Below the pieces are notes generated by a model. The model was not told where the DNA came from, searched no databases, and was given only the letters and a program-made list of their open reading frames with translations. From positions 2,914,001 to 2,978,000 of the forward strand of contig NZ_FSRM01000001.1 of the NCBI RefSeq assembly GCF_900141745.1: 64,000 nt of DNA, written 5' to 3'. The position numbers and the translations under genes are program-made. The stretch is from Paraburkholderia phenazinium (GTDB lineage Bacteria; Pseudomonadota; Gammaproteobacteria; Burkholderiales; Burkholderiaceae). Shown here piece after piece: positions 25,871 to 59,687 of the stretch (positions within the stretch are counted from its first letter, which is position 1; each line of letters starts with the position of its first letter).

Positions 25871-25885
25871 GCATACTCTGTGCCA
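25871..25885 (-). promoter_or_regulatory. Sigma-54 promoter candidate for mxaRSACKL
   Basis: On the minus strand the sequence reads TGGCACAGAGTATGC. The -24 box TGGCAC is perfect, GG and GC are ten bases apart as required, and only the -12 box (ATGC for TTGC) departs from consensus. It would start transcription about 80 bases before the mxaR ATG. Possible activator sites (TGTCAC repeat) lie about 43 bases further upstream. Confidence 0.6.
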
Positions 25886-25927
25886 GCGCGCCCGCCAGTA
25901 CGGCAGACGCGCTCGCGCGGAAAACAA

Positions 25928-25941
25928 TGTCACCCTGTCAC
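25928..25941. promoter_or_regulatory. Direct repeat TGTCAC-N2-TGTCAC, possible activator site
   Basis: Two copies of TGTCAC separated by two bases lie upstream of the mxaR sigma-54 candidate. The same hexamer occurs twice (31987 and 32032) upstream of the sigma-54 candidate of the H4MPT operon. The hexamer is short, so chance cannot be excluded. Confidence 0.35.
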
Positions 25942-25985
25942 ACCTTTCAAGTACAGAGTGTTCCGCTACTGCAAAATCCTGATCG

Positions 25986-26561
25986 CTATTGCGGAGATGC
26001 GCTGCTACCCGGCGAGCCCGCTGCTGCACTGCCGAGCATCAGTCCGACCAGCGCCGTGGCACCACGGCGCCAGGACAGATCGGTATTGCCGCGAATGTCC
26101 ACCGAGCGCTGGAATACGGTCGCCCCGCTGGCGACATCTTCGACGTGCAGGTTGATATTGAGGATCAGGTTGCTGACTTTCTGGACCCAGCAGCTGCCGA
26201 CCTGCTCGACGCCGAGCTTGCGCCCTACCTGCCGCGCGCAGCCGGCGCATGCATTCAGATCCTGCGACGCGCCGAGTTGAGCGATCAGGCCGGCAGCCGG
26301 GCCATTGTCGGCGACGTCATAGCGCCCGCCGGCGCGCAACTGCTCACGCAAGGCAGTACTGACCATCTGGAGGCGCGCCTGCTGGATGCGGTTGATCTCG
26401 GCGTCGTTGTAGGCCGCGTTATCGTCGATCAGCACGCAGTCCATGAGCGCGATCGAGGTCGGCGCAGCGAGCGCCTGCGAGGCGGCGAATGTCGCGCAGA
26501 CCATGCCGGCAACCGTCACGCAGCGCGCGAGCGCAGCACGTACCCGAACGGCAACGCTCAT
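25986..26561 (-). CDS. Exported protein of DUF2380/DUF3280 type
   Basis: A 191-residue protein with a signal peptide (ending QALAAP). The mature part begins IALMDCVLIDDN, has paired Cys near the middle (NACAGCARQVG) and one later (GSCWVQ), and ends with a repeat-like ILNINLHVEDVASGATVF section. Proteins of this type occur beside PQQ dehydrogenases in several proteobacteria, from memory; the function is unknown. The ATG overlaps the LysR gene stop by four bases, so it belongs to the xox operon. The family assignment is tentative. Confidence 0.6.
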   Translation of the reverse strand: MSVAVRVRAALARCVTVAGMVCATFAASQALAAPTSIALMDCVLIDDNAAYNDAEINRIQQARLQMVSTALREQLRAGGRYDVADNGPAAGLIAQLGASQDLNACAGCARQVGRKLGVEQVGSCWVQKVSNLILNINLHVEDVASGATVFQRSVDIRGNTDLSWRRGATALVGLMLGSAAAGSPGSSASPQ

Positions 26562-27520
26562 TTCAGAACTCCCCACTTCGCGGGCAGCGTGACGAATGGC
26601 GCGTACTCGCGCTCCAGATACGCGGCGGCCTGCTCGAGCAGAAACCGCCTGAATACCACGCAGGTCGGAGACAACTGCTTGGCCCGCAGATGCACGATCT
26701 GCCACGTACGTTCGATCGGCGTGCCGTTCACATCCAGCAAGGCGATTTCCTTCGTGCGCAATTCCAGCAGCAACGTATGGAGCGAAATCAGGCTCACCCC
26801 CATGTCCGCCATGACCGCCTGCTTGATCGTCTCGTTGCTGCCGAGCGTGACGACCTTCGCGGGTGTGAAAAGATGCTGTCTGAACATTTCCTCCGCAGCC
26901 ATGCGCGTTCCCGAACCGGGTTCGCGCAACAGAAAGGTGTCGCCGCGCAGTTCCTGCAGATCGAAGCGCTGCGCACCGCACAGCGGATGGCTCAACGGAG
27001 CGATCACCACTTGCGGATGCCACGCGAGCGGTTCGGTCGTGGTATCGAGTTCCGGCGGCGGCCGCCCCATGACGGCGAGATCGATCGCATTGTCCTGCAA
27101 CAGGCGCAGCAGCGCGTCACGGTTACCAACGGAGAAGTGCACGTCGACCTTGGGATACAGGTGCGAATACATGGCCAGCAGCTTCGGCGCGAAATACGTC
27201 GCAGAACTGACGATGCCCACGGCGATCGAGCCGCTATCGGCCTGTTTGAGCGAGGTCATCGCGTCTTCGGCATCCTTGATCTCGCCGAGAATCCGGCTCG
27301 CGTGATGGCTTAGCTTTTCACCCGCTTCGGTCATGGTGAGTTTGCGCGCGATGCGCTCGAACAGACGCAGTCCGACCGCCTCCTCCAGTTGATGAATCTG
27401 CATCGACACCGCCGGCTGGGTCAGATGCAGTTCCTCCGCGGCTCGTGCGAAGCTCGTATAGCGGCTCGCCACGACGAAGATCTGCAGCTGACGCAAGGTC
27501 AGCGAGCGGATGAAATTCAC
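26558..27520 (-). CDS. cbbR: LysR-family regulator, CbbR-like
   Basis: A 320-residue LysR regulator. The winged helix-turn-helix is at residues 5-65 (LRQLQIFVVASRYTSFARAAEELHLTQPAVS), followed by a linker helix and a substrate-binding domain. The body (VGIVSSATYFAPKLLAMY, DLAVMGRPP, FLLREPGSGTR) matches the CbbR group that controls Calvin-cycle operons. It starts with GTG at 27520; GAGG is upstream. Unusually it is not beside cbbL but inside the xoxFGJ run, 26 kb from the cbb operon. It might control cbb, xox or both. Confidence 0.8.
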   Translation of the reverse strand: MNFIRSLTLRQLQIFVVASRYTSFARAAEELHLTQPAVSMQIHQLEEAVGLRLFERIARKLTMTEAGEKLSHHASRILGEIKDAEDAMTSLKQADSGSIAVGIVSSATYFAPKLLAMYSHLYPKVDVHFSVGNRDALLRLLQDNAIDLAVMGRPPPELDTTTEPLAWHPQVVIAPLSHPLCGAQRFDLQELRGDTFLLREPGSGTRMAAEEMFRQHLFTPAKVVTLGSNETIKQAVMADMGVSLISLHTLLLELRTKEIALLDVNGTPIERTWQIVHLRAKQLSPTCVVFRRFLLEQAAAYLEREYAPFVTLPAKWGVLK

Positions 27521-27535
27521 CTTGGCGCGGCCTCG

Positions 27536-28300
27536 CTAACGGCTCGCCCGCGGCGCGTCCGAAGGCTTCATGGGCACATTAGGCGCATTTGGCGGCGGCG
27601 GCAGCTTGCGCAACGCGGCCTGGAAGCTCAACGTCTGCGTCTGCAGCGGGTGCGCGAAATCGTTGTTTGCGCCGGGTACGTCAGTACGGATCAGCGCGAC
27701 CTGGCCGGGCACGGTATCGGCAATCTGGAACGTGTAGCGCTTGCCGGTGTATTGAGCGAAGCGGTCCGCGTTGGGATCGTTCAGGTACGGCTGCACGACG
27801 ATCTGCTGGGCCTTCACGGACTTGCCGCCGATCTGGCTCGTCACGGTCTCGATCTTCGGCCCCGCGGCGAGCGCGAGTCGCAGGCGCTGCTGGAAATAAC
27901 GGCGCTGGCCGCCGGTCAGACGCTCCATCTCCGCGATGTCGCGCTCGAGGAAATAGACAATCACGGGGTTGCACTGCAGACCGCCATCGGGCAACGGCAC
28001 GGCTCCGCTGTGATCGGACACCTGGGCGTCGCCCTTGGCGTTGTCCGGACTGACCACCAGCACCCTGACGACATCCGTGCTGTGCGCCGGCTGGTCCGAA
28101 CTGAGGAAGGCATAGTCGAGTTCGGTTTGCTGTTCGATGCCATGCAGATGATCCGTCGTGAAGATGAGCTTCTCGGCGGCCGAGATTTCGTCCGTGCCGG
28201 CAGCAAACGCCACCGCATGCAACTGACAGGCCACGCACGTGATGCACGCCGCAAGCAGGCGCCGCCAGTCGCGGCGCAAGCACCTCGTTGCACCCCTCAT
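27536..28300 (-). CDS. Unknown exported protein of the xox operon
   Basis: A 254-residue protein with an Arg-rich n-region, a hydrophobic signal (about 14-33, ending AFAAG) and no recognised domain. Visible features are SSDQPAHSTDVVRVLVVSPDNAKGD, a single mature Cys (GLQCNPVIVYF), an amphipathic Arg/Gln-rich central helix and a Pro-rich tail (LPPPPNAPNVP). Its ATG overlaps the xoxJ stop (ATGA) and its stop is 15 bases from the LysR start, so it is translated with the methanol oxidation genes. Likely a periplasmic accessory factor; this is inference from context. Confidence 0.7.
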   Translation of the reverse strand: MRGATRCLRRDWRRLLAACITCVACQLHAVAFAAGTDEISAAEKLIFTTDHLHGIEQQTELDYAFLSSDQPAHSTDVVRVLVVSPDNAKGDAQVSDHSGAVPLPDGGLQCNPVIVYFLERDIAEMERLTGGQRRYFQQRLRLALAAGPKIETVTSQIGGKSVKAQQIVVQPYLNDPNADRFAQYTGKRYTFQIADTVPGQVALIRTDVPGANNDFAHPLQTQTLSFQAALRKLPPPPNAPNVPMKPSDAPRASR

Positions 28301-29208
28301 GGCGACCCGTCCGCGGGCTTGGCGGCCGGCGTGTCGATGGGCTTTAGAAGCGGCACTTCGTAACTCGTCAGGATGCTGTCGATCTTGTCATGGTTCGCAC
28401 CGATCCATTGATCGACCTTGTCCTTCCACGCTTTTTCGCCGTAGCGAACGCCCATCGAGATCGTATAGTCGAAGCGGATCCCCGGATCGGGCGGGAACGG
28501 CACCAGCTTTACCGTATCGCCGGCACGCTTGGCGAAGTAACCCGCAATCGGCCCCCACAGGAACACCACGTCGACATTGCCCGCCTGCAGATCGTGTTCG
28601 ATCATCTGGCCGGGATATTCCTGCGGGTCGCCGCTTTGCACCTGATACGAGACGGCCTGATCGATCAGGTTGTGACTGAGCAGCCAGTCGACCGCAGGCG
28701 TCTGCGAGAAAATGCCGAAGCGCAGCTTGTGCAACTGGTCCGGCGGCAGCTTGAGCAGATCGTCCGGCGTATTGATGCCGGCCAGTTCAGGCCGCTTGCT
28801 AAATACCATCGCATACGTGGAGCGCAGATACGGCTGCGTCGTCGAGGTCATGTCGTAACCTTTCGGCACGCCGATGATCAGATCACATTTGTACTGGTCG
28901 GAATCGGGCACCTTCTCGCGCAACGTATGGCGCACGAAACCCATGCGTTGCGGAAAATAGGTGTACTCGAGCTTGTAGCCGAAATCGCTCGCCATCTGGC
29001 TCGCAATGCGGTTTTCGTAGCCCTCGCCTTTGCTGTTGGACAAAGGCATGTTGTTCGGGTCGGCACAGACCCGCAGCACACCATCGGCGCCATCGTTATT
29101 GGGCAATGCCTCGCCCTGGGCCTGCACCGCGGCGCTTGCCATCGCCGCATAACACAGCGCGGCCGCGACGATCGCGATGTGCGCGGGCATTCGTTTGCCA
29201 TGACGCAT
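28297..29208 (-). CDS. xoxJ: XoxJ periplasmic binding-like protein
   Basis: A 303-residue protein with a signal peptide and a type 2 periplasmic-binding fold (LRVCADPNNMPLSNSKGEG near residue 45, typical of MxaJ/XoxJ). Cys pairs are visible (VCADP, KCDLIIG). XoxJ is thought to help fold or activate apo-XoxF. I start at the ATG at 29208 with AGGAG upstream; a TTG one codon earlier is less likely. It is third in xoxF-xoxG-xoxJ. Confidence 0.92.
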   Translation of the reverse strand: MRHGKRMPAHIAIVAAALCYAAMASAAVQAQGEALPNNDGADGVLRVCADPNNMPLSNSKGEGYENRIASQMASDFGYKLEYTYFPQRMGFVRHTLREKVPDSDQYKCDLIIGVPKGYDMTSTTQPYLRSTYAMVFSKRPELAGINTPDDLLKLPPDQLHKLRFGIFSQTPAVDWLLSHNLIDQAVSYQVQSGDPQEYPGQMIEHDLQAGNVDVVFLWGPIAGYFAKRAGDTVKLVPFPPDPGIRFDYTISMGVRYGEKAWKDKVDQWIGANHDKIDSILTSYEVPLLKPIDTPAAKPADGSP

Positions 29209-29238
29209 CAATAAGCTCCTGAGGTAGGGACGTCGGCG

Positions 29239-29658
29239 TTATTTCGCGTCGATGGCCTGCAGATCGCCCGGCTTGATCTGGCCATCGGAACGTCCTTTCA
29301 GATACGCGTAAAGGTTCTGCCAGTTCTTCTGCATCATCTGGCTCGAACTGAAGTCGGGCATGCCCTTGTCCACCCGGCCGCCGAATACGGTGCGGTGAAA
29401 CTCGTTCGTATCCAGGGTCTTGAACGCGTCGATCAGCGATGGTCCGACCATACCCTGCTGCTGCGCGCCGTGACAGCGTTCGCAGTCGAGCGCGCGCCAG
29501 GTCTTCCATCCTTGCAGCGTGTTGCTGTCGACCTTGTTGCCGTCCTGCACCTTGTACGTTACCTGGGCAATCGCGGGATTGGTCTGGGCAAACGCAGCAG
29601 GCAGCACGAGGAAAACGGCGGGCAATGCCGCCCGCAACAAGATAGCTCGGCCTTTCAT
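29239..29658 (-). CDS. xoxG: XoxG cytochrome cL, electron acceptor of XoxF
   Basis: A 139-residue periplasmic c-type cytochrome with a signal peptide (ending AFAQ), one haem motif CERCH (residues 59-63) preceded by KTWRALD, and an axial Met probably in KGMPDF. It lies directly after xoxF and before xoxJ. GGGAGA precedes the ATG. It would take electrons from PQQ of XoxF to the terminal oxidases. Confidence 0.92.
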   Translation of the reverse strand: MKGRAILLRAALPAVFLVLPAAFAQTNPAIAQVTYKVQDGNKVDSNTLQGWKTWRALDCERCHGAQQQGMVGPSLIDAFKTLDTNEFHRTVFGGRVDKGMPDFSSSQMMQKNWQNLYAYLKGRSDGQIKPGDLQAIDAK

Positions 29659-29820
29659 ATGCAGATGTCTCCCTTCAGATTAAGGCCACACCCCGACGCG
29701 CTTTGGCGACGCATCCGTGACATGGCGCGGGCCAGATGACCCGTAGACGACTCGTTTGACGAAGGCGCGGCCGGCACCAGTCCTACGCAAGGGCAGCAAA
29801 CCGGTCGCGCGTTTCAATCT

Positions 29821-29860
29821 GGGCTGGCCCGTGATGAGCCAGCCCGGCATGGGCCAGCCC
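29821..29860 (-). repeat. Inverted repeat hairpin between xoxF and xoxG
   Basis: A perfect 10-bp inverted repeat (29821-29830 with 29851-29860) starts 17 bases after the xoxF stop. A second, alternative pairing uses 29821-29828 with 29838-29845. No T-run follows on the minus strand. It is more likely an attenuating or 3'-end-stabilising hairpin than a full terminator, which would let XoxF be made in excess over XoxG and XoxJ. Confidence 0.55.
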
Positions 29861-29876
29861 GTCACGGATTCGCCCT

Positions 29877-31694
29877 TCAGCTAGTGCCGCCGGGAATGGC
29901 AAACACAAACAGCGTGCCGCCCAGCGCCGTGTACTTCGCAAGTTCGCGGTAACCGCCCACTGCGCCGAGACCCTCAGTCGACTTTTCGAGGCCTGCCGCC
30001 ATACCGATGCCGGCCCAGCCGCCGATACCCGAGTAGACACCGATGAACTGCTTACCCTGGTACTCGTAGGTAAACACGTTGCCGATGATCCCCGACGGGG
30101 TCTTGAAGCGCCAAAGTTCCTTGCCGTCGCTGATGCGAACCGCCTTGATGTAGCCTTCCAGCGTGCCGTAGAACGCCACTCCGCCTGCTGTAGCCAGCAC
30201 GCCCGACCATACCGAGAACTTCTCCGGCTTGGACCAGACGATCTTGCCCTTCGAAGCATCCCAGGCAATGAAGTTACCCATCGAGTTGTTGTCGTTCGGG
30301 CCCGGATACATCGACAACGTGGCGCCCACATACGGCTGGCCCGACACGTAATCGACATCGAACGGCTCGTAGTCCATGCATACGTGGTTGGTCGGCACGA
30401 GGAAGAGCTTCGAGTTCGGGTCGTACGCCGCCGGTTGCTGGTCCTTCGAGCCGAGTGCCGCCGGACAGATGCCCTTCACGTTATGATCGGAGCCCGCCGC
30501 CTGGGTCGAATATGCTGCGTTGCGAATCGGCTTGCCGCTTTGCAGATCCACACGGTCGGCCCAGTTCACCGCCGGGTCGAACTTCTGGGCAACCAGCAGT
30601 TGTCCCGTCTCACGATTCAACGTGTAGCCAAAACCGTTGCGGTCGAAGTGAACGATGGCCGGCACCTTCTTGCCGTCGATCGTCAGGTCGGAGAGGATCA
30701 TTTCGTTGACACCGTCATAGTCCCATTCGTCGTGGGGTGTCATCTGATAGACCCACTTGGCTTCTCCGGTATTCAGGTCGCGCGCGAAGATCGACATCGA
30801 CCATTTGTTGTCGCCCGGACGTTGCGTCGGGTTCCATGTACCCGGATTGCCGGTGCCGTAGTAGACAAGATTGAGTTTCGGATCCCACGCATACCAGCCC
30901 CAGGTGGTGCCGCCGCCCAGTTTCCACTGGTCCCCCTTCCAGGACTTCAGCGACGAGTCCGCGCCCACCGGCACCATCTTGCCGTCGGCGTAGGTCGTCG
31001 TTTTGTCGGGGTCGATCAGCATGTCCTTGTCGGGCCCCGTGCTGTAGGCCGTCCAGGCCGGTTTGCCGGTCTTGATGTCATACGCGATGAGACGCCCGCG
31101 CACGCCGAACTCGCCGCCCGAGATGCCGGTCAGCACCTTGTCGCCGAATACGTGCGGCGCGTTGGTGTTGGTTTCACCCGCTTTCGGATTGCCGTTTTGC
31201 GCGGTCCAGACCACATCGCCGGTTTTCGCGTTCAACGCAACGAGTTTGGTGTCGGCCTGTTGCAGGAAGATCTTGCCGTCGCCATAGGCGAGCCCGCGGT
31301 TGACGGTATCGCAGCACATCACGGACACCACCTGGTCATCCTGCTTCGGCAGGTACTGCCAGATGAACGTCTGGTCTTTCAGATTGATTGCAATAACCTT
31401 GTTAGGGAACGGCGAGTGGATATACATGGTGTCGCCGATCACGAGCGGTGAGCCTTCGTGGCCACGCAGCACGCCGGTCGACATGGTCCATGCGACCTGT
31501 AGTTTCCCGACGTTGCTTTCGTTGATCTGCTTAAGTGGGCTATAGCGATGGTTCGCATAATCGCCCGCCTGGGCCGCCCAGTTGGACGGACTCTTCAAGG
31601 CCTCGTCGAGCTGCGGATCGGCCTGTGCAATGATAGAACTCAAGGCTGCCGACGCGAGGATCGCGAGCCCAAGAACCGTGGTGCGTAAGTTCAT
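29877..31694 (-). CDS. xoxF: XoxF lanthanide-dependent methanol dehydrogenase
   Basis: A 605-residue periplasmic PQQ enzyme oxidising methanol to formaldehyde (or formate). It has a signal peptide (IIAQAD), the vicinal disulfide Cys127-Cys128 (CCDTVNRG) and the active site HDEWDYDG, with catalytic Asp325 and the lanthanide-coordinating Asp327, the mark of XoxF against MxaF. The propeller Trp motifs and length fit. GGAGGAG precedes the ATG. It is followed by xoxG and xoxJ. No mxaF or small subunit mxaI is in the window. Confidence 0.97.
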
Positions 31695-31987
31695 GTCTCC
31701 TCCAGAATGGTCTTGCTGTTCAACTCACGAATGACCCACGCTACCTCGTCGCATCGGGCGCGCCTCCTCGGATGCGGGTAACGATCAGCGCCCTCACCCG
31801 ATCGTTGTCGGACTTTGCGGCGCATGACGGCCGACGCATATTCCATGCCGGAATCGAACTGGCGTGCATATCGCGCGCCGCCACAAGCTCGTCGATATAC
31901 GCCGCGCGGCGCTCGCTACGCGTCTTGCGTCCATTCGCGCCACCTCCTCGCGTTAGCTTCGGATCACTCACCATCCGGCGCAGCGGT

Positions 31988-32035
31988 GTCACGGCTGTGA
32001 CCGGCTGCGTCGCGCCACGTGGGACATTCTGTGTC
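31988..32035. promoter_or_regulatory. Inverted repeats, candidate enhancer sites
   Basis: Two dyads: GTCAC-N4-GTGAC at 31988-32001 (perfect) and GACA-N5-TGTC at 32023-32035. Both contain TGTCAC, found also upstream of mxaR. They sit roughly 75 to 125 bases upstream of the sigma-54 promoter at 32111, the usual distance for enhancer binding by an NtrC-class activator. Confidence 0.45.
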
Positions 32036-32110: not shown

Positions 32111-32126
32111 TGGCCCGCCTATTGCA
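32111..32126 (+). promoter_or_regulatory. Sigma-54 promoter candidate for the H4MPT operon
   Basis: TGGCCCGCCTATTGCA matches the -24/-12 consensus (TGGCAC, five bases, TTGCA) with one mismatch. GG and GC are ten bases apart. Transcription would begin about 37 bases before the ATG of the pcd-like gene. Confidence 0.65.
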
Positions 32127-32572: not shown

Positions 32573-32720
32573 CGCAGGGCACCGTCCCGCGCACCTGGTA
32601 CGGCTTTCGCTTGAAGTGCCCCGCCGGGCCGCTGCGCCACGGCACGCGCCGTTACCGCGACGGCCCTTCGGGTGCGCCCGCTCATACACGGCAAGTCAGG
32701 CACGAATAAGGACACGCACA

Positions 32721-38183: not shown

Positions 38184-39114
38184 GTTGCCCTGTTCCGTCG
38201 CGTACGGACCCGTTCACGCCGCTTTCCTTGCGGCCTGCCGGCTCGATGTGGAAACCCCGAAGCCCGGCAACGTCAGCGTGCAAAGCGCCGGACACGGCAT
38301 GCGCGCGGCCCAGTTCATCACCAGCGCGGAAGTGGCCGCCGCCGCGCTCCTCGCACGCGGCGCGCCGGTCGGCCTGCGCGTGCTCGATGCGGTCACCCGC
38401 ACGCGCGAGGCGGTCGGCTGCAACACGAACCTCGGCATCCTGCTGCTAGTCGCGCCGCTCGCCGCGGCGCTGGAGGCGGCGCTGCGCCCACTGTCAGCCG
38501 ACCGCTGGCGCGACGCGACCGAACGCGTGCTGGCGCGGCTCGATATCGACGACACGCGCCTCGCGTACCGCGCGATCGCGCTCGCCAATCCCGGCGGTCT
38601 CGGCGAGGCGCCCGAACAGTCGGTCTACACGCCGCCGACGGTCGGCCTGCGCGAAGCGATGACGCTCGCTGCCGGGCGCGACAGCATCGCGCGTCAATAT
38701 GCCGAAGGATTTCGCGACATCTTCGACAGCGGCCTTGCCGCGTTCAGCGAAATGCCTGCCGATCAGCCGCGGAACGCCACGCTCAACGTCTTTCTCACGT
38801 TCCTCGGCGCCTGGCCCGACTCTCACATTGTGCGTAAGCAGGGTATTGCCGTGGCGCAGAGTGTCACGCTTGCGGCACGCGAACGGCACGCGACGTGGCG
38901 CCACTCGCTCGCGCAAAACCGTTCCGACGAAATGCATCAGCCGCTCGATGCATGGGACGCAGAACTGAAGGCTAGTGCCATCAACCCCGGCACCAGCGCG
39001 GACTTGACCGTGGTGACGCTGTTCGTCGCCGGCTGCCTTGCATCCGTCGACGGCGCCGGCCCCAGCTCATACCAGCCGGACAGCCAGCGCATTGGCACGG
39101 ATCCTGTTAGTTAG
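38167..39114 (+). CDS. CitG-like triphosphoribosyl-dephospho-CoA synthase homologue
   Basis: A 315-residue protein with the CitG/MdcB fold: [15 protein letters not shown] with the conserved phosphate region, [19 protein letters not shown], and DRNT-like SHIVRKQG. Authentic CitG makes the citrate lyase prosthetic group precursor, but no citrate lyase is here. The homologue is conserved in H4MPT clusters, where a phosphoribosyl transfer in H4MPT synthesis is a plausible role. The ATG at 38167 overlaps the ligase gene end; another lies three codons later. Confidence 0.82.
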
Positions 39115-39813: not shown

Positions 39814-40218
39814 ATGAGCATACGATGTCGTGCGCTGGCAGCCTGTGCCTGCCTCACGCTCGCGGTACCGCTCGCGTGGGCGGATGGCGACGCGCCCACG
39901 GCGGCTGCCCCGGCGGGAGGTTACAACTATCCGACGCAGGGCCGGGTCGAATATGTGCTGGGATGCATGGACGACAACGGACACGATTTCGCCAACGTCT
40001 ATAAATGTTCGTGCGTGATCGACAAGATGGCTACCGCGCTGCCCTACGAGGAGTTCGTCGATCAGTCGACGTTCTCCAAGTACGCAACGTTGGGCGGCGA
40101 AGGCGGCTCGGAGTTTCGGGTCGATCAGGCGAAAGCGCAGACGAAGAAATTCCGCGCATTGCAGACCGATGCCTACCGCAGTTGTGGGCTAGGGCACGAA
40201 AAGACGGCGGCGAAGTAG
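39814..40218 (+). CDS. Unknown exported Cys-containing protein downstream of fae
   Basis: A 134-residue protein with a signal peptide (ending AWADG) and four Cys in the mature part: LGCMDD (51), KCSCVID (65 and 67) and YRSCGLG near residue 124. It has no haem CxxCH motif. The sequence is rich in polar residues after residue 75. It follows fae by 85 bases and is likely cotranscribed behind the hairpin. I do not recognise a family; a periplasmic role in C1 metabolism is only suggested by position. Confidence 0.65.
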   Translation: MSIRCRALAACACLTLAVPLAWADGDAPTAAAPAGGYNYPTQGRVEYVLGCMDDNGHDFANVYKCSCVIDKMATALPYEEFVDQSTFSKYATLGGEGGSEFRVDQAKAQTKKFRALQTDAYRSCGLGHEKTAAK

Positions 40219-40823: not shown

Positions 40824-41268
40824 GGTGTACTCCGCCGCGGCGCGGCAAATAATCTGCAAACGAGTTGGCAAAAGGCCCGAAACCGCGCTGCAAGACGCGC
40901 CTCGGGTAAACGCATAGCCGCACAGGTGTGACAGCACGCGAAGCACTCTGCGCCGAAGTTGCAACACTCTCCTCGCCTTCGGCCAGCAGAGGAAGTCATT
41001 CGGGCACGATGATGAGAAAAGCAAAAATCGCGCACGCTATCCAGGGCTATTGCGACTTTTTTATTGAACGGGAGCGACATCCGGCGTAGAGTTTTAAGCC
41101 GATGCTTGGTATAAGGACTAATCACTCGGTGCGCATATGGACCCAGAACCGTAGCGCGAGGGGAAGACGGTATCGATAAAGCGGCACTCGTACGCGCATG
41201 GCGAAGCAAGGCAGCAGCAACGCAGTGTGAGCCGGCACGGACGAATTGACGCAACGGAGACAAACCCC
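40824..41268. other. Divergent promoter region for the folB-like gene and the sigma-54 activator
   Basis: 445 bases without a supportable gene. A possible sigma-70 promoter reading right is TTGAAC (41064) with 17 bases to TAGAGT (41087). No good GG-N10-GC core was found on either strand in the parts I checked, so the activator gene is probably not under its own control by sigma-54. Confidence 0.35.
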
Positions 41269-43362
41269 ATGTCGTTGCTCACTGACAGCACCATGCACGT
41301 CCGTGAAGTTTTGAACGTCGTCAATCATCAATTGGCGACCCGCCCGACGAGCGACCCCGTCGCTCAATCATGGGCGCGCTGCATGAACGAATTCCAGCTC
41401 GACCCTTCCCGTTTTGTCGTGCCCCCTGTCCTGACCGACTACGAACTCAGTTCGCGCCGCGAGGCAATGGGCGATCTGATCGCCTGCTCGAAGCTCGAAA
41501 TGACCACGCTTTACCAGCAACTGGCCGATCCCGAACTTGCGGTGGTGCTGGTCGATGCCGGCGGCATGATCGTCCATCAGGTTTCGTCGGTGCCTTTCGC
41601 CGAAGCGGTCGCCGCAGACGGCTTTCGCGTCGGCGCTCTATGGAGCGAACGCGAGGCCGGCACGAACGGCATGGGCACGTGCCTCGCCGAACGCGACTGC
41701 ATCGCCGTCTGCCAGCACGAGCATTTCTATCCGCGCTATACGTCGCTCACCTGCTCCGCCGCGCCGATTTTCGACGACAGCGGCGAAATTGCCGGTGTGC
41801 TGGATGTGACGAGCCGCTCGAAGCTGCTGCAGCAGCATTCTCTGGTGCTGGTCGGCATGTCGCGGCAGATGATCGAAAACCGTCTGCTGGATGCGCGTTA
41901 CCGGCACGCGAACATGATCCATTTTCACAGCCGCCCGGAATTCGTCGGTACGCTGCACGGCGGCAAACTGGCGGTGGCGGACGACAGCACGGTGCTCGCC
42001 GCAAACCGCAGCGCGCTGTTCCAGCTCGGCTTCCGCTCGCTGCGCGAACTGCGCGGCCGGCGCATCGAGGAAGCGTTCAATGCTTCGCTCGAGGACATGA
42101 TCGCGCGCAGCATCCGCGGGTCGTTCCATCCGGTCACCGTGTACAGCGCTAACGCGACCAACCGCTTCTTTCTCGTCGCGCAGACGCCGCAAAGCAGCGC
42201 CGAACGTGGCGTGCGAGTGGCGGGGACAGCGCCCGTGACGCGTGCCAACGCGCCCGAGAAGCGGCCGGCGCCGGCCCGGCTCGACCAGATCGCGCACCTG
42301 GAATTCGGCGATCCGCGCATGGCCTCGCAAATCCAGCTCGCGGCGCGAGTGGTCCAGCGCAAGATTCCGATCATCCTCAGAGGGCAGACGGGTACCGGCA
42401 AGGAAGTCTTCGCGCAAGCGCTGCATAGCATCAGCCCGCACGCATCCGGTCCGTTCGTGCCGGTGAATTGCGCGTCGCTGCCCGAAAATCTGATCGAAAG
42501 CGAACTGTTCGGCTATCGGGCGGGCGCGTTTACCGGTGCGCAGCGCGAAGGACGGCGTGGCAAAATCGTGCAGGCCAATAGCGGCACGCTCTTCCTCGAT
42601 GAAATCGGCGACATGCCGCTCGCGTTGCAGGCGCGCCTGCTGCGCGTGATCGAGGAACACGAGGTCACGCCGCTCGGCGCCGAAACGACCATCAAGGTCG
42701 ATTTCCAGCTCATCAGCGCCAGTCACCGCAATCTGCTCGAACTCGTGCACGGCGGACAGTTTCGCGAGGATCTGTATTACCGGCTCAAGGGTGTTGAACT
42801 GAATCTGCCGCCACTCAGCGAACGGGTCGACAAGCTCGCGCTGATCCATCATCTGCTCGAAAAAGAAACGAACAACGATCCGCCCGAGCTGACCCCGGAA
42901 GCCGAGCAGGCGTTGCTGACGTATGCATGGCCCGGCAATATCCGCCAGTTGCGTCACGTATTGCAGATGGCCATCGCGCTTTGCGACGGACAACCCATCC
43001 GCTGCCAGGACCTGCCTGGCGAAATCACCCAACGTATGCCGGAAAACGGGCCGGTGGCAGCTTTGCGTGCGGCGGTGCCGGACGTCGACCCGCATCCGGA
43101 CGACGAAGTGGATCTTTCCGCGCTCAACGCCATCCAGTTGAACGAACGCGGGACCGTTCTGACGCTGCTCGACGAGCACCGCTGGAACGTCAGCAACGTC
43201 GCCAAGGCGCTTGGCATCAGCCGCAACACGTTGTACCGGAAGATGCGCCGGCTGCATATCCGTCTGTCGCACGACGGCTCGGCAATCGCCGGCGAGCCGG
43301 CCGACGAGATGCCGTCCGACGATTCGTTCTCCAAAGAGTCGCCGCCCATCGACGACGCATGA
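41269..43362 (+). CDS. Sigma-54 dependent activator, AcoR type (GAF, AAA+, Fis)
   Basis: A 697-residue enhancer-binding regulator. The N-terminal sensor half contains a GAF-like domain with the AcoR mark GTNGMGTCLAERDC (about 140-155). The AAA+ domain has Walker A GQTGTGKEVFAQ, the sigma-54 contact loop GAFTGA, Walker B GTLFLDEIGDM and the arginine-finger region FREDLYYRLKG. A Fis-type helix-turn-helix (NVSNVAKALGISRNTLYRK) ends it. GGAGA precedes the ATG at 41269. AcoR-type sensors respond to small alcohols, ketones or aldehydes. It overlaps dmrB by four bases, tying it to H4MPT metabolism. Confidence 0.93.
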   Translation: MSLLTDSTMHVREVLNVVNHQLATRPTSDPVAQSWARCMNEFQLDPSRFVVPPVLTDYELSSRREAMGDLIACSKLEMTTLYQQLADPELAVVLVDAGGMIVHQVSSVPFAEAVAADGFRVGALWSEREAGTNGMGTCLAERDCIAVCQHEHFYPRYTSLTCSAAPIFDDSGEIAGVLDVTSRSKLLQQHSLVLVGMSRQMIENRLLDARYRHANMIHFHSRPEFVGTLHGGKLAVADDSTVLAANRSALFQLGFRSLRELRGRRIEEAFNASLEDMIARSIRGSFHPVTVYSANATNRFFLVAQTPQSSAERGVRVAGTAPVTRANAPEKRPAPARLDQIAHLEFGDPRMASQIQLAARVVQRKIPIILRGQTGTGKEVFAQALHSISPHASGPFVPVNCASLPENLIESELFGYRAGAFTGAQREGRRGKIVQANSGTLFLDEIGDMPLALQARLLRVIEEHEVTPLGAETTIKVDFQLISASHRNLLELVHGGQFREDLYYRLKGVELNLPPLSERVDKLALIHHLLEKETNNDPPELTPEAEQALLTYAWPGNIRQLRHVLQMAIALCDGQPIRCQDLPGEITQRMPENGPVAALRAAVPDVDPHPDDEVDLSALNAIQLNERGTVLTLLDEHRWNVSNVAKALGISRNTLYRKMRRLHIRLSHDGSAIAGEPADEMPSDDSFSKESPPIDDA

Positions 43363-43934
43363 CCCAGACGCCCGCTCGTCGTCTCGCCGAGTTCAAGCCC
43401 GATGCGCGCTTCGCCTGGTGCGTAACAGGCTCAGGCCATCTGCTCGACGAGTCGATCGCGCTCGCGCTCGAACTGCCGCGCGTCGATCTCTTCCTCTCCG
43501 CAGCCGCGGAGGAAGTCTTGCCGCTCTATGGCTGGCCCCTGCCGAAGCTGCGCAAGCACTTCCGCGTGTTTCGCGACAATAGTGCGAGCGGCGTGCCGGT
43601 CGGTATGCTCTACCACGGCATGTACCACACGGTGGTGATCGCGCCGGCCACCAGCAACACCGTGGCCAAATGCGCATTCGGCATCTCCGACACGCTACCG
43701 ACCAACATGTACGCGCAGGCGGGCAAGCAGTGCATTCCGGGCATTGTCTTTGCATGCGACACGGAGCCGACCGTAGTGACGCAAAGCCCGAACGAATGGG
43801 TCGAACTGCGTCCGCGGGCGATCGAACTCGACAACGTTGAGCGCCTGTCGCGCTTCGAATACACGACACTCGTGCGCTCGCTGGATGAACTGAAAGCGGC
43901 GCTCGGTGAGCGCCTGTCGCGCGTGACTATATGA
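43359..43934 (+). CDS. dmrB: Dihydromethanopterin reductase, flavoprotein type (DmrB)
   Basis: A 191-residue flavoprotein of the HFCD fold that reduces dihydromethanopterin to H4MPT, the last cofactor step. Motifs: FAWCVTGSGHLLDES, the FMN-binding PATSNTVAKCAFGISDTL, and Cys residues KQCIPGIVFACD. DmrB of a Burkholderia species is a structurally known member of this family, as I recall. The ATG overlaps the activator stop (ATGA). Confidence 0.88.
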   Translation: MTQTPARRLAEFKPDARFAWCVTGSGHLLDESIALALELPRVDLFLSAAAEEVLPLYGWPLPKLRKHFRVFRDNSASGVPVGMLYHGMYHTVVIAPATSNTVAKCAFGISDTLPTNMYAQAGKQCIPGIVFACDTEPTVVTQSPNEWVELRPRAIELDNVERLSRFEYTTLVRSLDELKAALGERLSRVTI

Positions 43935-52187: not shown

Positions 52188-53762
<1,575 letters not shown>

Positions 53763-53795
53763 TCACTGAGAATTCACGATTTCATTTGGCAGACT

Positions 53796-53809
53796 TAACC
53801 GATCCGTTA
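53796..53809. promoter_or_regulatory. Dyad TAAC-N6-GTTA, possible CbbR operator
   Basis: An AT-rich symmetric element about 110 bases upstream of the cbbL ATG. LysR regulators bind such partial dyads near the -35 to -75 region. The spacing differs from a clean T-N11-A box, so this is a candidate only. Confidence 0.3.
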
Positions 53810-54065
53810 TCGATTGCACAACGCGAAGCGATTTTTCAACACATGCGCGAACGATCGATGGAGAATGATCTGCATGGGATCGGCGAGCACCGGGTGACAG
53901 GAGAACAGAGCCGTGCTGCCCGGCATGGAACACTTTGCTGCATTCCCGGAACAGTGCGCGGCGCGAGCGCATCGTACTGCGCACACCGTGGTCGCACCGG
54001 CGCAATTCGGCAAACGCTGCATTGCGGCGCGCCCACAAGTCGCTTGTGCCAGGTCATCGAAAACC

Positions 54066-54080
54066 CGGCATGGAGCTTGC
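54066..54080 (+). promoter_or_regulatory. Sigma-54 promoter candidate for pqqA
   Basis: CGGCATGGAGCTTGC has GG and GC ten bases apart and a consensus TTGC -12 box; the -24 box (CGGCAT) is weaker. The identical 15 bases occur just before fhcB (59673). Transcription would begin about 70 bases before pqqA. Confidence 0.5.
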
Positions 54081-54159
54081 GTAGTCACCAACGCCAATGA
54101 AGTCCGGCATCACGCCGGGCCGACGGCACAACGCTGTACAACACATGGAGGAAACACGT

Positions 54160-54234
54160 ATGCAATGGACGACTCCGAGCTACACCGATATACGTCTTGG
54201 TTACGAAATCACGATGTACGTCGCTACGCGTTAA
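54160..54234 (+). CDS. pqqA: PQQ precursor peptide
   Basis: A 24-residue peptide starting [20 protein letters not shown]. Glu16 and Tyr20 are in the E-x3-Y arrangement that PqqE crosslinks to build PQQ. Strong ribosome site (GGAGGAAA) before the ATG. The coenzyme serves XoxF and the second PQQ dehydrogenase. No pqqB, C, D or E is in the window; the next gene is DUF447, so this is an isolated pqqA placed in the C1 island. Confidence 0.93.
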
Positions 54235-54242
54235 GCCCGCCC

Positions 54243-54261
54243 GGGCCGCGACACGCGGCCC
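54243..54261 (+). repeat. Hairpin after pqqA
   Basis: A perfect 8-bp GC stem (54243-54250 with 54254-54261) with a three-base loop, nine bases after the pqqA stop. No T-run follows. It may limit read-through into DUF447, so that the precursor is made in excess. Confidence 0.5.
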
Positions 54262-54333
54262 TTCGGCGGATTTGCGGTAATCCCTGACTAACCGGCCGGC
54301 TTTTCGGCGCTGCCAGGACACGCGTTCCCATCC

Positions 54334-54933: not shown

Positions 54934-54960
54934 TCTGTCCCGCCTTTTCGGAGAATATCG

Positions 54961-55704: not shown

Positions 55705-55779
55705 TGCACCTGATTGCCCGCAAGCCGTTGCCTCGCACCCAGGATGCCGCAAAAGACCGCGCAGCAATAGGCACGAATA

Positions 55780-56370
55780 CTAGATCACCGGGATGTTCAG
55801 CAGCCGGTCGCGCATCAGCGCGACATTGTCCTTGTTGAACATCTCGACCACGTAATTGGCCTCGATCACATGATCGACGAAACGGCGGTCGACTACGCCC
55901 GTGGCCGCCAGCGTCTCGAGCCGCTCGTTCTCCGAGATGGCGCATGACTTCACCACGATCAACCGCTCGGCGTTGAGCATGGTCGAGAGCCATGCGGCGA
56001 GGCTGTCGGAGGTGGTGTCCCAATTGCTCATCGCGTCCGGCGTGTCGCGCATCAGCGAGGTCGGCACCCACACTGCCACGCGGCCGTCGCGCAGCGCGCG
56101 GCGGATCTTCGCCTCACTCGAGGCGAGCACGAGTTCAGGCAAGATCCCTTGCATGAGAATCGCGTATTGCGTCATGGCAAGCAGACACATGTTGTGCGCG
56201 GCGAGATCGTCGAAGCGCCACTCGCTCTGGTATTGCCGCACCTTGTCCGCGAAATCGCCGCCACCGGGCACGATGACGACGCGCCCGCCCCCCACCTCAC
56301 ATAGCTCGACGAGCCACTTGCGAAGCATCGGATCGTGACTCAGGCTGCCCCCGATCTTGACCACCCACAT
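55780..56370 (-). CDS. mfnE: Amino acid kinase-type protein, MfnE-like
   Basis: A 196-residue amino-acid-kinase-fold protein: WVVKIGGSLSHDPML, VVIVPGGGDFADKVR, and WDTTSDSLAAWLS. In methanogens MfnE phosphorylates the aminomethylfuran phosphate intermediate. Here it follows the mfnF-like gene on the same strand, so the same role is likely. It lies 39 bases after that gene and converges on mfnB. Confidence 0.75.
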   Translation of the reverse strand: MWVVKIGGSLSHDPMLRKWLVELCEVGGGRVVIVPGGGDFADKVRQYQSEWRFDDLAAHNMCLLAMTQYAILMQGILPELVLASSEAKIRRALRDGRVAVWVPTSLMRDTPDAMSNWDTTSDSLAAWLSTMLNAERLIVVKSCAISENERLETLAATGVVDRRFVDHVIEANYVVEMFNKDNVALMRDRLLNIPVI

Positions 56371-56409
56371 GATCGTTGTCCTCTTCCGCGCGTTTCCGCT
56401 CGTTTCCCT

Positions 56410-57564
56410 TCAACTGCTCAAGGCCGCCCGCGCTGCTCCGCTGCGGCTGGCATCACCGGCGTCCCAGTGGCGAGTCGCCGCAAGCAGCGCTATCGCCACA
56501 CTCGGCGCGCACGTTGCGGCCCAGTCCGACCGGTTCGCCGGCACACCCGCCAGCGTGCCGAAATCGATGTACGCGCGTGGCGCTTCACTGGCTTCCATAC
56601 TGGCCAGCGCCGCCGCGAGAAAGCGTCCACACCCTGCGCCGACCAGCGGTGCGGCGGCGAGCTCAGGGTGAGCCGCCGTCACGCGCGCCAGATTGGCGCC
56701 GATCTCGCGCAACTGCAGTTCGCGCCAACGCAGCGCGAACCCGCGCCATTCGCCGGAACCCGCTTCATGGGCGTCCCGGCCAATCATCCGCGCGAGCCGC
56801 GTGCGGCTGGCTGCTTCCGTCTTCGGTCCCTGGTCGGCGCTCGGATACAGGTCGTAGTGCGGCGCCAGTTCGCCCGTGAGGCGGTAAACGTCCGCCGTGG
56901 TCGCAAACCATTCGTTCATCACGTTGACGGTCTCCCCAGCGAACTCGATGCGCTGGGCGAGGCCGCACAAAGGCGTGCGCACCACGCCCTGGTACACGAG
57001 TTCGCCGGTGGCGAGCCGCCCGGCATCCGTCGCAGCACGCGCGACGACGCCACCGCCGGCGATCGGAATGATGTCGGTGGTGGTACTGCCAATGTCGATC
57101 AGCAGCGCATCGGGTACGCGCGACGCGATCCAGCTCGCGGTGGCCAGCCAGTTCGCCGAGGCGACACTGCGCCAACCGTCCGCGCAGGACTGCGGCGTGA
57201 GCCAGCCGGCGTCGCCCGCGTAGAAACGCAAGCGCGGCCCGAGCCGCTGCGCGAGCGCAGCAGCGATGGCCTGCACGCCATGCGCGCGGTCCTCGAAGAG
57301 GTCGACCATCTCCCCGGTCATCGTCACCGCGTGCAGCGCGGCGTCAGTCCGGGCGGCCGGCCAGCGCTCGAAGACAAGGTCGATGGTTCGCTCGAGATGG
57401 TCGAGGCCCTGCCATAGCGGACAAGCCCACTGCGCGACATCGAGCACCGCGCCCGCGGCATCGGCCATCGACACCTTCACGTGCGCGCCGCCGACATCCC
57501 AGCCGAATACGGCCGCGCCATCCGCCGTAGCGACGCTTGCATCGGCGCCGAACCCGGCGCTCAT
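56410..57564 (-). CDS. mfnF: Hydantoinase A-like protein of H4MPT organisms, MfnF-like
   Basis: A 384-residue ASKHA-type protein: FGWDVGGAHVKVSMAD phosphate-1 loop, LIDIGSTTTDIIPI second loop, GELVYQGVVRTPLCGLA, and GAGCGRFLAAALA. It matches the group annotated as H4MPT-linked C1 transfer protein. In methanogens MfnF joins the furan and the tyramine-glutamate part of methanofuran. The ATG at 57564 overlaps the mfnD-like stop by four bases. Confidence 0.78.
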   Translation of the reverse strand: MSAGFGADASVATADGAAVFGWDVGGAHVKVSMADAAGAVLDVAQWACPLWQGLDHLERTIDLVFERWPAARTDAALHAVTMTGEMVDLFEDRAHGVQAIAAALAQRLGPRLRFYAGDAGWLTPQSCADGWRSVASANWLATASWIASRVPDALLIDIGSTTTDIIPIAGGGVVARAATDAGRLATGELVYQGVVRTPLCGLAQRIEFAGETVNVMNEWFATTADVYRLTGELAPHYDLYPSADQGPKTEAASRTRLARMIGRDAHEAGSGEWRGFALRWRELQLREIGANLARVTAAHPELAAAPLVGAGCGRFLAAALASMEASEAPRAYIDFGTLAGVPANRSDWAATCAPSVAIALLAATRHWDAGDASRSGAARAALSS

Positions 57565-58625
57565 CGCTGCGCTCCGCAGGCGGGCGGTGCGCCACAGTTG
57601 CGCGCCGCCGGACCGGACCCCACGATACGCACGCCGTGGGCAGCAAGCAGGGCGTGCGCGAGGTTGCCGCCGAGCGCCTCGGACAGCCCGGCATACGCCA
57701 CCGTCAGACGCGGGTTGACCTCGATCACAATCGGGCCGCGCGACGCATGCCACACCACGTCGATGCCGACGAAGCCGCGCAGCCCCGGCAGCGCCTGAGC
57801 CACGCGCTGCGCGAGCGCGCCGAGCATGCGGCCCTGGTCGCCAGCCAGGTCGATCTGGTTGACCATCACGCCATCGAATTCCACGATGTGCGGTTGCTGC
57901 TGCGCCGCATCGCCTTCGCTCAGGCTGATTTGCTGCCGGTTGATGCTGACGAGTTCAACGCCGTCGCCGTGGCAGATCAGCGAGAGGCTGAGCGGCTCGC
58001 CGTCGACCCATGCCTGCAGCACCGGATTGCGCGCGGCGGCGGCACGTGCGTCGTATTCGGCACAGGCGTCGGCAAAATTGTCGAATACGAAGGTATCGAG
58101 ACCGCCCGCGCCGTCGTCCGGTTTCACGACCCAACGGCTGCCCGGTTGTCCGGCGGCCTGTCCGGCGAGCTGTCCAGGTTCGACAGCCGGCGTCGTGGCG
58201 ATGCCGTGCGCCATCAGGCACGCCGCAGTCGCGCTCTTGCTCGACGCCACGCGGATCGATTCTTTCGAACAGCCAAGCCAGCGCGCGGCGCCCACCGCGT
58301 CGTACAGATGCAGCAGCAAACCGTCGCACTCCGGCGCGATGATCCACGCGTAGTCGTGCTCGCGAGCTACCCGCGCGACAAAAGCGGTCATCGACTCGCC
58401 TTGTGCGGCCCTACAATGGACGCGCGACGATGCGACGGTTTCAAAACGGGAACTCGCGAAGCTCACGTCCACTCCGTCGAGTTCCCGCAGGTCGCTCACC
58501 AGTGCGTCACGCATCACCCGGCCTTCGACGATCAGCGCGCTCAGGTCGGCCAGACTTCCCGCGCCGGCATGTGCCGGATCGATGCCGCCACCGGTGAGAT
58601 ACTCGAAGACAAAGATCTTGGTCAA
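57561..58625 (-). CDS. mfnD: ATP-grasp ligase, MfnD-like
   Basis: A 354-residue ATP-grasp protein beginning KIFVFEYLTGGGID, the start shared with tyramine-glutamate ligase MfnD. ATP-binding: WVVKPDDGAGGLDTFVFD; metal end: IVIEVNPRLTVAYAGLSEALGG. No ATG fits before residue 38; the best start is TTG at 58625. The longer GTG frame runs antisense through the HisA-like gene. It probably ligates glutamate to tyrosine or tyramine in methylofuran; the amine partner is unknown. Confidence 0.72.
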   Translation of the reverse strand: MTKIFVFEYLTGGGIDPAHAGAGSLADLSALIVEGRVMRDALVSDLRELDGVDVSFASSRFETVASSRVHCRAAQGESMTAFVARVAREHDYAWIIAPECDGLLLHLYDAVGAARWLGCSKESIRVASSKSATAACLMAHGIATTPAVEPGQLAGQAAGQPGSRWVVKPDDGAGGLDTFVFDNFADACAEYDARAAAARNPVLQAWVDGEPLSLSLICHGDGVELVSINRQQISLSEGDAAQQQPHIVEFDGVMVNQIDLAGDQGRMLGALAQRVAQALPGLRGFVGIDVVWHASRGPIVIEVNPRLTVAYAGLSEALGGNLAHALLAAHGVRIVGSGPAARNCGAPPACGAQR

Positions 58626-58639
58626 AGGAGCGCGCCCCC

Positions 58640-59413
58640 ATGCAGGTGATACCGGTTCTCGATCTGCTCGACGGCCACGTGGTACGCGCGGTGCGCGGCG
58701 AACGGACAGCCTATCAGCCGATCCACTCACCGCTTGCCGCTACCAGCGAGCCGCTTCACATCGCCCGCGCCCTGCTTGCTGCAAGCGGCGCACGGACGCT
58801 CTATATCGCCGACCTCGGCGCGATCCTTCAGCAAGGCGCTCACGTCGAGACGCTCGCTGCACTACGTGCCGCCCTGCCCGGCACTGACATCTGGCTCGAC
58901 GCGGGCTATGCCGACTATGCGTCGATGCATGCGCTGTTCGCGCGTATCGAAGAAACCACCCGGCGCAACAGCCTCGACGGCACGCGTCCGTCTGCTCCGC
59001 ACGGTCTCGCGACGCTCGTGCCGGTGTTCGGCAGCGAGTCGTTGCTCGACATCGACGCACTACGCGCCGCTGAAGCCGCCAGGCTTTCTCCAATCCTTTC
59101 GCTCGACCACCGCGCCGGTCAACTGATCACGGCTACGTCTTCGCTCACCCCAGCCGGGCACACCTCGGCATGGTGGCCCCGCAGGGTGATCGCGATGACG
59201 CTCGATCAGGTAGGCAGCTACGACGGTCCCGACCTCGCCACGTTCGAACGTATCCGTGCCCATGCTCCCACGCATACCGCCGTGATCGGCGCGGGCGGCA
59301 TTCGCCATCGCGAGGACATGGCAGCGGCGGCCCGCACCGGCGCTTCGGCATGGCTTGTGGCGTCTGCGCTGCACGATCGCCGTATAGGCCTGCCATTCGT
59401 CGAATCAACATAG
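58640..59413 (+). CDS. HisA-like TIM-barrel protein of C1 clusters
   Basis: A 257-residue protein of the HisA/HisF fold: VIPVLDLLDGHVVRAVRG at the N-terminus, TLYIADLGAI, DIWLDAGYAD, ILSLDH and VIGAGGIRHREDM. It is not a normal histidine gene, as no his genes are near; homologues are conserved in H4MPT/methylofuran clusters. AAAGGAG precedes the ATG. Its start is 14 bases from the divergent mfnD-like start. The reaction is unknown. Confidence 0.8.
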   Translation: MQVIPVLDLLDGHVVRAVRGERTAYQPIHSPLAATSEPLHIARALLAASGARTLYIADLGAILQQGAHVETLAALRAALPGTDIWLDAGYADYASMHALFARIEETTRRNSLDGTRPSAPHGLATLVPVFGSESLLDIDALRAAEAARLSPILSLDHRAGQLITATSSLTPAGHTSAWWPRRVIAMTLDQVGSYDGPDLATFERIRAHAPTHTAVIGAGGIRHREDMAAAARTGASAWLVASALHDRRIGLPFVEST

Positions 59414-59462
59414 GCGTGCTATACAACTTTCATGCCAATCGCCGGAGAAGCCGTGGCTGTAA

Positions 59463-59491
59463 ACAAACGGCAAGCTAAAGGTGCCGTTTGT
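59463..59491 (+). terminator. Stem-loop after the HisA-like gene
   Basis: A perfect 10-bp stem (59463-59472 with 59482-59491) and a 9-base loop. The right arm ends in GTTTGT without a longer T-run, so termination is probably partial. It separates the HisA-like gene from fhcB, which has its own promoter candidate. Confidence 0.55.
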
Positions 59492-59672
59492 GACACTCTG
59501 CTCCAGATTGACACACAACCTGTGCGGAGCAATGCGGCGCGCCCGTTGCACAGCCGACACATTGCGTGCAGGGCAGCGCGCATATCGCGACGGTATCGAT
59601 CCTTTTAAGCGCAAGGCCACATAAGCGGCGCGCGATGCGTCGCGCACCTCGCTATGGCATCTGGACTCAAAT

Positions 59673-59687
59673 CGGCATGGAGCTTGC
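59673..59687 (+). promoter_or_regulatory. Sigma-54 promoter candidate for fhcBADC
   Basis: CGGCATGGAGCTTGC, the same 15 bases as before pqqA, with the GG-N10-GC core and a TTGC -12 box. Counting 12 bases on gives a start near 59699, two bases before the fhcB ATG, which would leave almost no leader. Confidence 0.45.

Follow-up and report, generated by a model that had tools for sequence, protein, structure and literature searches.

A probable sigma-54 regulon for methanol and formaldehyde oxidation in a C1 island of Paraburkholderia phenazinium

A sigma-54 switch is silent without its activator. Sigma-54 acting with AcoR-type activators is a known kind of control, and the targets of AcoR- and DhaR-type activators concern acetoin or dihydroxyacetone. 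In one-carbon (C1) metabolism, MmoR and RpoN control methane oxidation and are not known to control the genes for XoxF, tetrahydromethanopterin (H4MPT) or pyrroloquinoline quinone (PQQ). MxcQE and MxbDM regulate PQQ alcohol dehydrogenases in Methylobacterium. The sigma-54 activator BmoR of Thauera butanivorans is described as alcohol-responsive, with an activating site 193 bp from its promoter (PMC8899819, PMC6366067). Regulation of the soluble methane monooxygenase involves rpoN and mmoR, according to a title cited in PMC10992012. In the ped cluster of Pseudomonas, PedS2/PedR2 and AgmR are reported with LuxR-type regulators of PQQ alcohol dehydrogenases (PMC12997753), and most methane-metabolism genes of Methylosinus sporium are reported to carry RpoD promoters (PMC12403871). 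Among the matches listed in a search of full-text literature, a scope outside which most subscription journals lie, we found no description of a sigma-54 regulon of XoxF, H4MPT and PQQ genes. Here we analyze a stretch of 64,000 nucleotides of Paraburkholderia phenazinium (the window; G000:C1:2914001-2978000, from an 8.3-Mb genome in two contigs) that carries a C1 island. In this island, the genes for XoxF, H4MPT, the PQQ precursor and formylmethanofuran dehydrogenase quite probably have sigma-54-type promoters with related palindromes, and are switched on together by an activator encoded among them.

Sigma-54-type sites and their conservation in the genus

A first-pass annotation of this DNA had placed GG-N10-GC promoter cores before pcd, mxaR, pqqA and fhcB, and all four were located exactly as claimed. 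The pqqA site (CGGCATGGAGCTTGC, 54066..54080, plus strand) and the fhcB site (CGGCATGGAGCTTGC, 59673..59687, plus strand, ahead of an ATG at 59701) are identical in 15/15 nucleotides. The pcd site (TGGCCCGCCTATTGC) is at 32111..32125 on the plus strand and the mxaR site (TGGCACAGAGTATGC) at 25871..25885 on the minus strand. Two further canonical sites were absent from that annotation. One belongs to xoxF (CGGCATGGAATATGC, 31836..31850, minus strand) and lies at about -156. The other (TGGTACGGCTTTCGC, 32596..32610, plus strand) lies between pcd and mptG, the gene for ribofuranosylaminobenzene 5'-phosphate (RFAP) synthase, whose start codon is probably ATG 32721. The idea that the mptG site is coding sequence was rejected once the pcd stop had been mapped.

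RFAP synthase had a match in 57 of the 146 genomes searched, our own included. Congeneric relatives account for 45 of these matches, and 41 of them plus our own give 42 islands; G062 (contig end) and G046, G063 and G066 (another island type, used below) were left out. Adjacent stretches were joined for each genome and genes were then mapped. Denominators are the islands, our own included, in which the gene start is in view. The sigma-54 matrix, like the palindrome matrix used later, was set by hand. At a score of at least 9, GG-N10-GC stands where expected upstream of xoxF in 42/42 islands, pqqA in 34/34, fhcB in 33/33, pcd in 21/42 and mxaR in 7/20. The mptG site scores 10.8-13.9 across 42/42. 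Conservation in relatives, expected by the first-pass annotation for its four sites, is thus complete for pqqA and fhcB and only partial for pcd and mxaR. The two sites it had called near consensus are the optional ones.

As a control, we scanned 200 nucleotides upstream with 60 column-permuted matrices at a threshold of 11.5. The true matrix matched before pqqA in 27/34 islands (permuted mean 0.5, maximum 8), fhcB in 32/33 (0.5, 6), mptG in 22/31 (0.4, 4), pcd in 20/42 (0.7, 10), xoxF in 11/42 (0.3, 7) and mxaR in 6/20 (0.3, 3). Matches at other genes are scattered: dhps (8/40), the cytochrome gene at 39814 (6/31) and g29239 (6/42). The conserved site upstream of dhps was rejected as a candidate; it lies inside dmrB. 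We also ranked 15-nucleotide blocks of the aligned upstream regions by conservation, without any motif model. Upstream of xoxF (n=42, mean 0.57), a ribosome-binding-site block (0.99) is followed by the sigma-54 site (0.98), a leader block (0.93) and a palindrome (0.92). The leading blocks are the palindrome (0.95) and the sigma-54 site (0.85) for pqqA (n=34, mean 0.58), and the sigma-54 site (0.93), the palindrome (0.86) and a second palindrome (0.81) for fhcB (n=33, mean 0.53).

The sites could be chance matches, or be conserved for another reason, with the genes using ordinary promoters. A scan of the window did not bear out an enrichment over background (41 matches to the consensus with at most two mismatches, 50.5 expected), so the sites are not significant from the window alone. 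Conserved sites also occur inside coding sequence, as before dhps within dmrB, and C1 genes of M. sporium are reported to use RpoD (PMC12403871). Against this stand the fixed position of GG-N10-GC within otherwise variable intergenic DNA, the permuted-matrix controls, the same form in other families, and the lowered fhcA transcript listed for an rpoN mutant (PMC5979394). We consider this reading very improbable.

A probable, non-canonical site precedes fae (TGGCACGGATCCTGTT, 39093..39108, plus strand; fae ATG 39219) in 38/41 islands. Its -24 half is perfect. Some 240 bp ahead of the site, and within citG, a palindrome-like block (GGCGCAGAGTGTCAC / GGCGCANAGTGTCAC; 38853..38867, plus strand) is present in 41/41 islands. 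Judged by these sequences, xoxF, mptG, pqqA and fhcB would form the universal core, fae is a probable member, and pcd and mxaR would be optional.

The fhcB site has a further feature. In 29/33 islands, 12-13 nucleotides separate its GC from the first downstream ATG (59673-59703 in the window). With this spacing the transcript would start within about 2 bases of the ATG, giving a leaderless mRNA if that ATG is the start codon.

The activator and the palindrome

The activator gene (41227..43362, plus strand) lies between folB and dmrB (43359..43934, plus strand), and the dmrB ATG at 43359 overlaps its stop. Pfam assigns a GAF domain (PF01590), an AAA+ domain (PF00158, E 3.9e-63), a lid and HTH_8 (PF02954), in a GAF-AAA+-HTH_8 layout. 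The GAFTGA letters are intact, a Fis-type helix-turn-helix is found at the C-terminus, the N-terminal GAF domain is the predicted sensor, and no receiver domain appears in its Pfam table. Domains, letters and frames thus all agree with the earlier description of an AcoR-type activator that overlaps dmrB. On the DhaR model the protein scores 273.9 bits, below the cut-off of 551 (among the best 25 of 27 families), so it is related to DhaR but is not DhaR itself. The solved N-terminal region of DhaR (4lrx) is a weak match (E 8e-4). The genome holds rpoN (two PF04552 matches). We infer that this protein is the acting activator, with an alcohol or aldehyde as its signal.

Two features were seen in the gap between folB and the activator gene. 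In the window it contains GTGTGACAGCACGCGAAGCACTCTG at 40926-40950, and in some relatives it contains GGCACA-N3-TGTGCC palindromes, which perhaps serve autoregulation. Gammaproteobacterial records of Nevskia and Dyella have an activator homologue (41-43%) near PQQ dehydrogenase genes. These dehydrogenases are 71% and 58% identical to the XoxF of the window, and the sigma-54-like sites upstream score 18.5 and 17.8.

Upstream of xoxF, pqqA and fhcB the islands share a conserved 15-bp palindrome, GKVACA-N3-TGTBMC, in full or degenerate form. Within the genus it lies some 50-280 bp before the -24 element. In the window it is found as GGGACATTCTGTGTC between xoxF and pcd (32021..32035, plus strand), as GTGACACTCTGCTCC upstream of fhcB (59490..59504, plus strand), where a second palindrome-like block (CACACAACCTGTGCG) follows at 59512..59526 on the plus strand, and as GGAACACTCTGTACT upstream of mxaR (25950..25964, minus strand). 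The pqqA copy is degenerate (GGAACACTTTGCTGC, 53927..53941, plus strand), with one good half, and is the top-ranked block of that region. Motif discovery by expectation maximization converged on GC-rich repeats and was dropped; gapped dyads were counted instead. GTGACA was the top gapped dyad in 4/4 promoter groups, with a frequency of 0.57-0.88 of regions versus 0.063 in random island windows. Over the 42 islands, the palindrome matrix gave 62 matches at spacer 3 versus 2-38 at spacers 0-2 and 4-8; the 38 matches at spacer 5 lie mostly in the xoxF-pcd gap, as do many of those at spacer 3. By gap, the spacer-3 matches number 26 for xoxF-pcd, 11 and 3 before fhcB, 9 between folB and the activator gene, and 6 and 3 before mxaR; other places hold few.

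We also counted palindromes paired with sigma-54 sites. There were 179 such pairs over the 42 islands, versus 36-54 when the -12 element was moved by -1, +1 or +2; with palindrome spacers of 2, 4 or 6 the count falls to 6-16. Among the 179 pairs, 27 have no assigned gene and 30 stand before fae, where part of them depends on a different site inside citG. Upstream palindromes common to the targets are as expected of sigma-54 enhancer sites, and we predict that they are sites of the activator.

We applied the same matrices, fixed beforehand, to 30 further genomes that carry H4MPT genes; 13 of them have an activator homologue in the C1 island and 17 do not. Since the palindrome matrix came from genus data, only these outgroups test it independently. 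In one genome without the activator (G170) none of the three proteins had a match, so 16 were compared. In part of this set the absence was first assumed from kinship and then looked at around the genes concerned. No activator-like gene was found around dmrB or the fetched mptG, fhcB and xoxF genes, except in G109, which was nevertheless counted here; a genome-wide search covered some of these genomes. The 13 homologues are 44-75% identical and stand beside dmrB in 8/13, across several families.

At a score of at least 14.5, an mptG site is present in 9/13 genomes with the activator versus 0/16 without, and an fhcB site in 7/13 versus 0/16; random windows reach this score in 3%. The mptG score of G205 comes from a site 500 nucleotides upstream, before pcd. 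Four genomes with the activator fall short for mptG: G112 (13.1), G256 (14.2), G349 (12.3) and G143 (10.3, far upstream). Palindrome scores of at least 10.5 occur in 29/35 upstream windows from genomes with the activator and in 4/46 from those lacking it, and scores of at least 12 in 17/35 and 3/46; with any other spacer the counts at 10.5 do not exceed 9/35 and 8/46. In G046, G063 and G066, a second island type in the genus, a perfect GTGACA-N3-TGTCAC stands upstream of the mptG site. In seven genomes with the activator, and in many that lack it, mptG and fhcB are divergent neighbors, so their windows share palindromes and are not independent. The Fisher values (7e-5, 1e-3 and 7e-12) ignore relatedness and this sharing. 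For xoxF, 6/9 genes in genomes with the activator have a similar GG-N10-GC site (such as GGCATNNNATGTGC) between -130 and -255, scoring 7.7-12.8.

The palindrome might belong to another, unrelated regulator, such as the LysR-type protein encoded at 26558-27520, with sigma-54 acting on some operons only. A LysR gene is kept in all islands mapped, and the two kinds of site do not always occur together: in the window, mptG has a sigma-54 site without a palindrome match beside it. But the palindromes track the activator across families, and the pair count drops as soon as the -12 element is displaced. An unrelated owner of the palindrome is therefore improbable.

A somewhat less improbable, though still unlikely, alternative is that sigma-54 does act at these promoters but answers there to a different activator, for instance NtrC when nitrogen is short, while the island activator controls something else. 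The genome encodes 15 strong sigma-54 activators, the island one included, so another could act. The only rpoN data come from nodules, with nitrogen genes dominant (PMC5979394, Table 3). On the other hand, strong sites before mptG and fhcB are confined, among the outgroup genomes, to those with an activator of the island type, although rpoN was found in 15/16 genomes without it as well as in 13/13 with it. In 9/42 islands the gap between folB and the activator gene itself also holds a palindrome of this kind.

These nodule data concern Paraburkholderia phymatum. Table 3 of PMC5979394 lists Bphy_6505, formylmethanofuran dehydrogenase subunit A, with a log2 fold change of -3.5 in rpoN-mutant nodules; the table gives 93 genes of enriched categories only. 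In the text of that source as available to us, "formaldehyde" and "tetrahydromethanopterin" do not occur and "methanol" appears solely as an extraction solvent. The P. phymatum plasmid NC_010625.1 carries the island near 1.05-1.09 Mb, with palindromes and with sites before xoxF (GGCATGGAATATGC), mptG (TGGTACGTCTCTTGC) and fhcB (CGGCACGGACCTTGC), and also before pqqA and fae. A second-type H4MPT island lies near 457 kb (pBPHY01, NC_010625.1 440000-485000), with its own activator copy, 62% identical, an fhcB site (TGGCACATGAGTTGC) and an mptG site (TGGCATAGCGCTTGC). Whichever island holds Bphy_6505, a sigma-54 site stands before fhcB in both.

Several observations, beyond the missing excess in the window and the number of other activators, weigh against one regulon under the island activator. 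Many islands lack the pcd and mxaR sites, the -12 element of the xoxF sites is weak (TATGC), and the fae site has GT instead of GC in its -12 half. No spacer-3 palindrome match reaches the matrix threshold at pqqA in the 42 islands. The strict palindrome occurs 8 times in the whole genome and not in the island, versus 12 times for a reversed control, so the palindrome alone is not a specific address in this genome. Outside the genus, no xoxF site reaches 14.5 (0/9 with the activator, 0/15 genes without), the scores do not separate the groups, and the best, 13.1, belongs to a second copy in G109, from the set without the activator. G109 lacks mptG and fhcB sites although a 35-43% homologue lies next to its dmrB and xoxF. 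A tree of the activators from several families gives no single resolved clade. In the rpoN data, indirect effects are likely in nodules, and Bphy_6505 is the single such gene listed (PMC5979394).

We nevertheless regard an old sigma-54 regulon for methanol and formaldehyde, driven by the island activator, as the most likely reading. The single regulon of the first-pass annotation is well supported for the H4MPT operon, pqqA and fhc, while pcd and mxaR are only optional members. The support consists of conservation, the common palindrome, strong mptG and fhcB sites found only with the activator in the families tested, and one line of an rpoN transcriptome. The sequences themselves show the sites, their conservation, the palindrome and the restriction of strong outgroup mptG and fhcB sites to genomes with the activator.

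The xoxF leader and the rest of the island

Downstream of its sigma-54 site, xoxF has a structured leader (31695..31838, minus strand) that is conserved and covarying, a candidate regulatory RNA. In the alignment 95.0% of cells are paired, and covariation is 0.238 versus at most 0.053 when the structure is slid; it was reached in 0/500 shuffles. The observed numbers of two-sided pairs and of pair types are reached in 96/500 and 288/500 shuffles. A seven-pair helix, CGUUACC/GGUAGCG, is invariant; because it never varies, covariation does not itself test it. The covariance model has one match in our genome and also matches Paraburkholderia sp. NMBU_R16. Under strict filters it matches 44/146 genomes, our own included, all of the same genus. 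A set of 35 loci gave nothing convincing beyond the genus either. Rfam gave no match up to E 5. Judged by its predicted fold, the leader is a candidate riboswitch-like RNA. By eye, the XoxF leaders of 5/6 genomes from other families show a GGTAATG...CATTACC-like inverted repeat right after the sigma-54-like site.

The dehydrogenase encoded at 29877..31694 (minus strand) reads EWDYDGVNE and so has the second Asp of the D-Y-D motif, which we take to be the mark of lanthanide enzymes. Its closest solved chains are XoxF 6dam and 6oc5, and by its sequence we class it as XoxF-type. The island begins with a MoxR/VWA block (mxa-like), a DUF3280 gene, the LysR gene, two genes without a Pfam match and a cytochrome gene. 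It continues with the PQQ methanol dehydrogenase, pcd, mptG, further H4MPT genes, mch, mptN, a citG-like gene, fae, folB, the activator, dmrB, a dhps-like gene and Calvin-cycle genes. It ends with pqqA, a DUF447 gene, the (5-formylfuran-3-yl)methyl phosphate synthase gene with its neighbors, fhcB, fhcA and fhcD. The gene order from xoxF to prk is the same in NMBU_R16. In a congener with a 5.2-Mb genome (G008) the island is decaying: the activator, xoxF and other genes are interrupted by stops or breaks, and RFAP synthase gave no match. The site patterns of xoxF, mptG and fae are still present there.

A proposed C1 switch among known systems

By analogy with its family, sigma-54 RNA polymerase would wait closed at these promoters. 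The GAF domain of the activator would take up a C1 ligand, predicted to be methanol or formaldehyde. Activator dimers would bind the palindromes and form an AAA+ ring, which would reach the promoter by DNA looping and use GAFTGA to open it. The palindrome distances fit enhancer action, with a published parallel in the BmoR site 193 bp upstream (PMC8899819). Enzyme, cofactor precursor, carrier synthesis and formaldehyde disposal would then rise as one unit, so that no formaldehyde would be made before its removal is possible. Silence until an activator acts would suit a pathway with a toxic intermediate. More speculatively, and with considerable doubt on our part, XoxF-based methylotrophy in Burkholderiales might be a single ancient sigma-54 regulon that is locked twice. 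A dedicated enhancer-binding protein that senses C1 compounds would turn on every operon, and in the Paraburkholderia-type genus the new leader RNA, sensing a second signal such as a lanthanide or PQQ, would also gate the xoxF message. The island yields two candidates, a sensor of methanol or formaldehyde and a regulatory RNA, and makes testable what facultative methylotrophs sense.

In the RpoN regulon of P. phymatum, fhcA is listed as RpoN-activated, as proposed here; unlike here, we saw no C1 regulon drawn in the parts of that source available (PMC5979394). MmoR and RpoN resemble this system in using sigma-54 in C1 metabolism (PMC10992012). PedS2/PedR2 and AgmR of Pseudomonas are histidine kinases with LuxR-type regulators, whereas the island has an AcoR-type sigma-54 activator (PMC12997753). 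BmoR is likewise a sigma-54 activator with an upstream activating site, and it answers to an alcohol (PMC8899819). It is described for one monooxygenase promoter, whereas the island activator would serve at least four operons across a pathway, with a ligand that is only predicted. AcoR- and DhaR-type activators share the domain layout of the island activator and differ from it in their target set, which for the island activator would be C1 oxidation.

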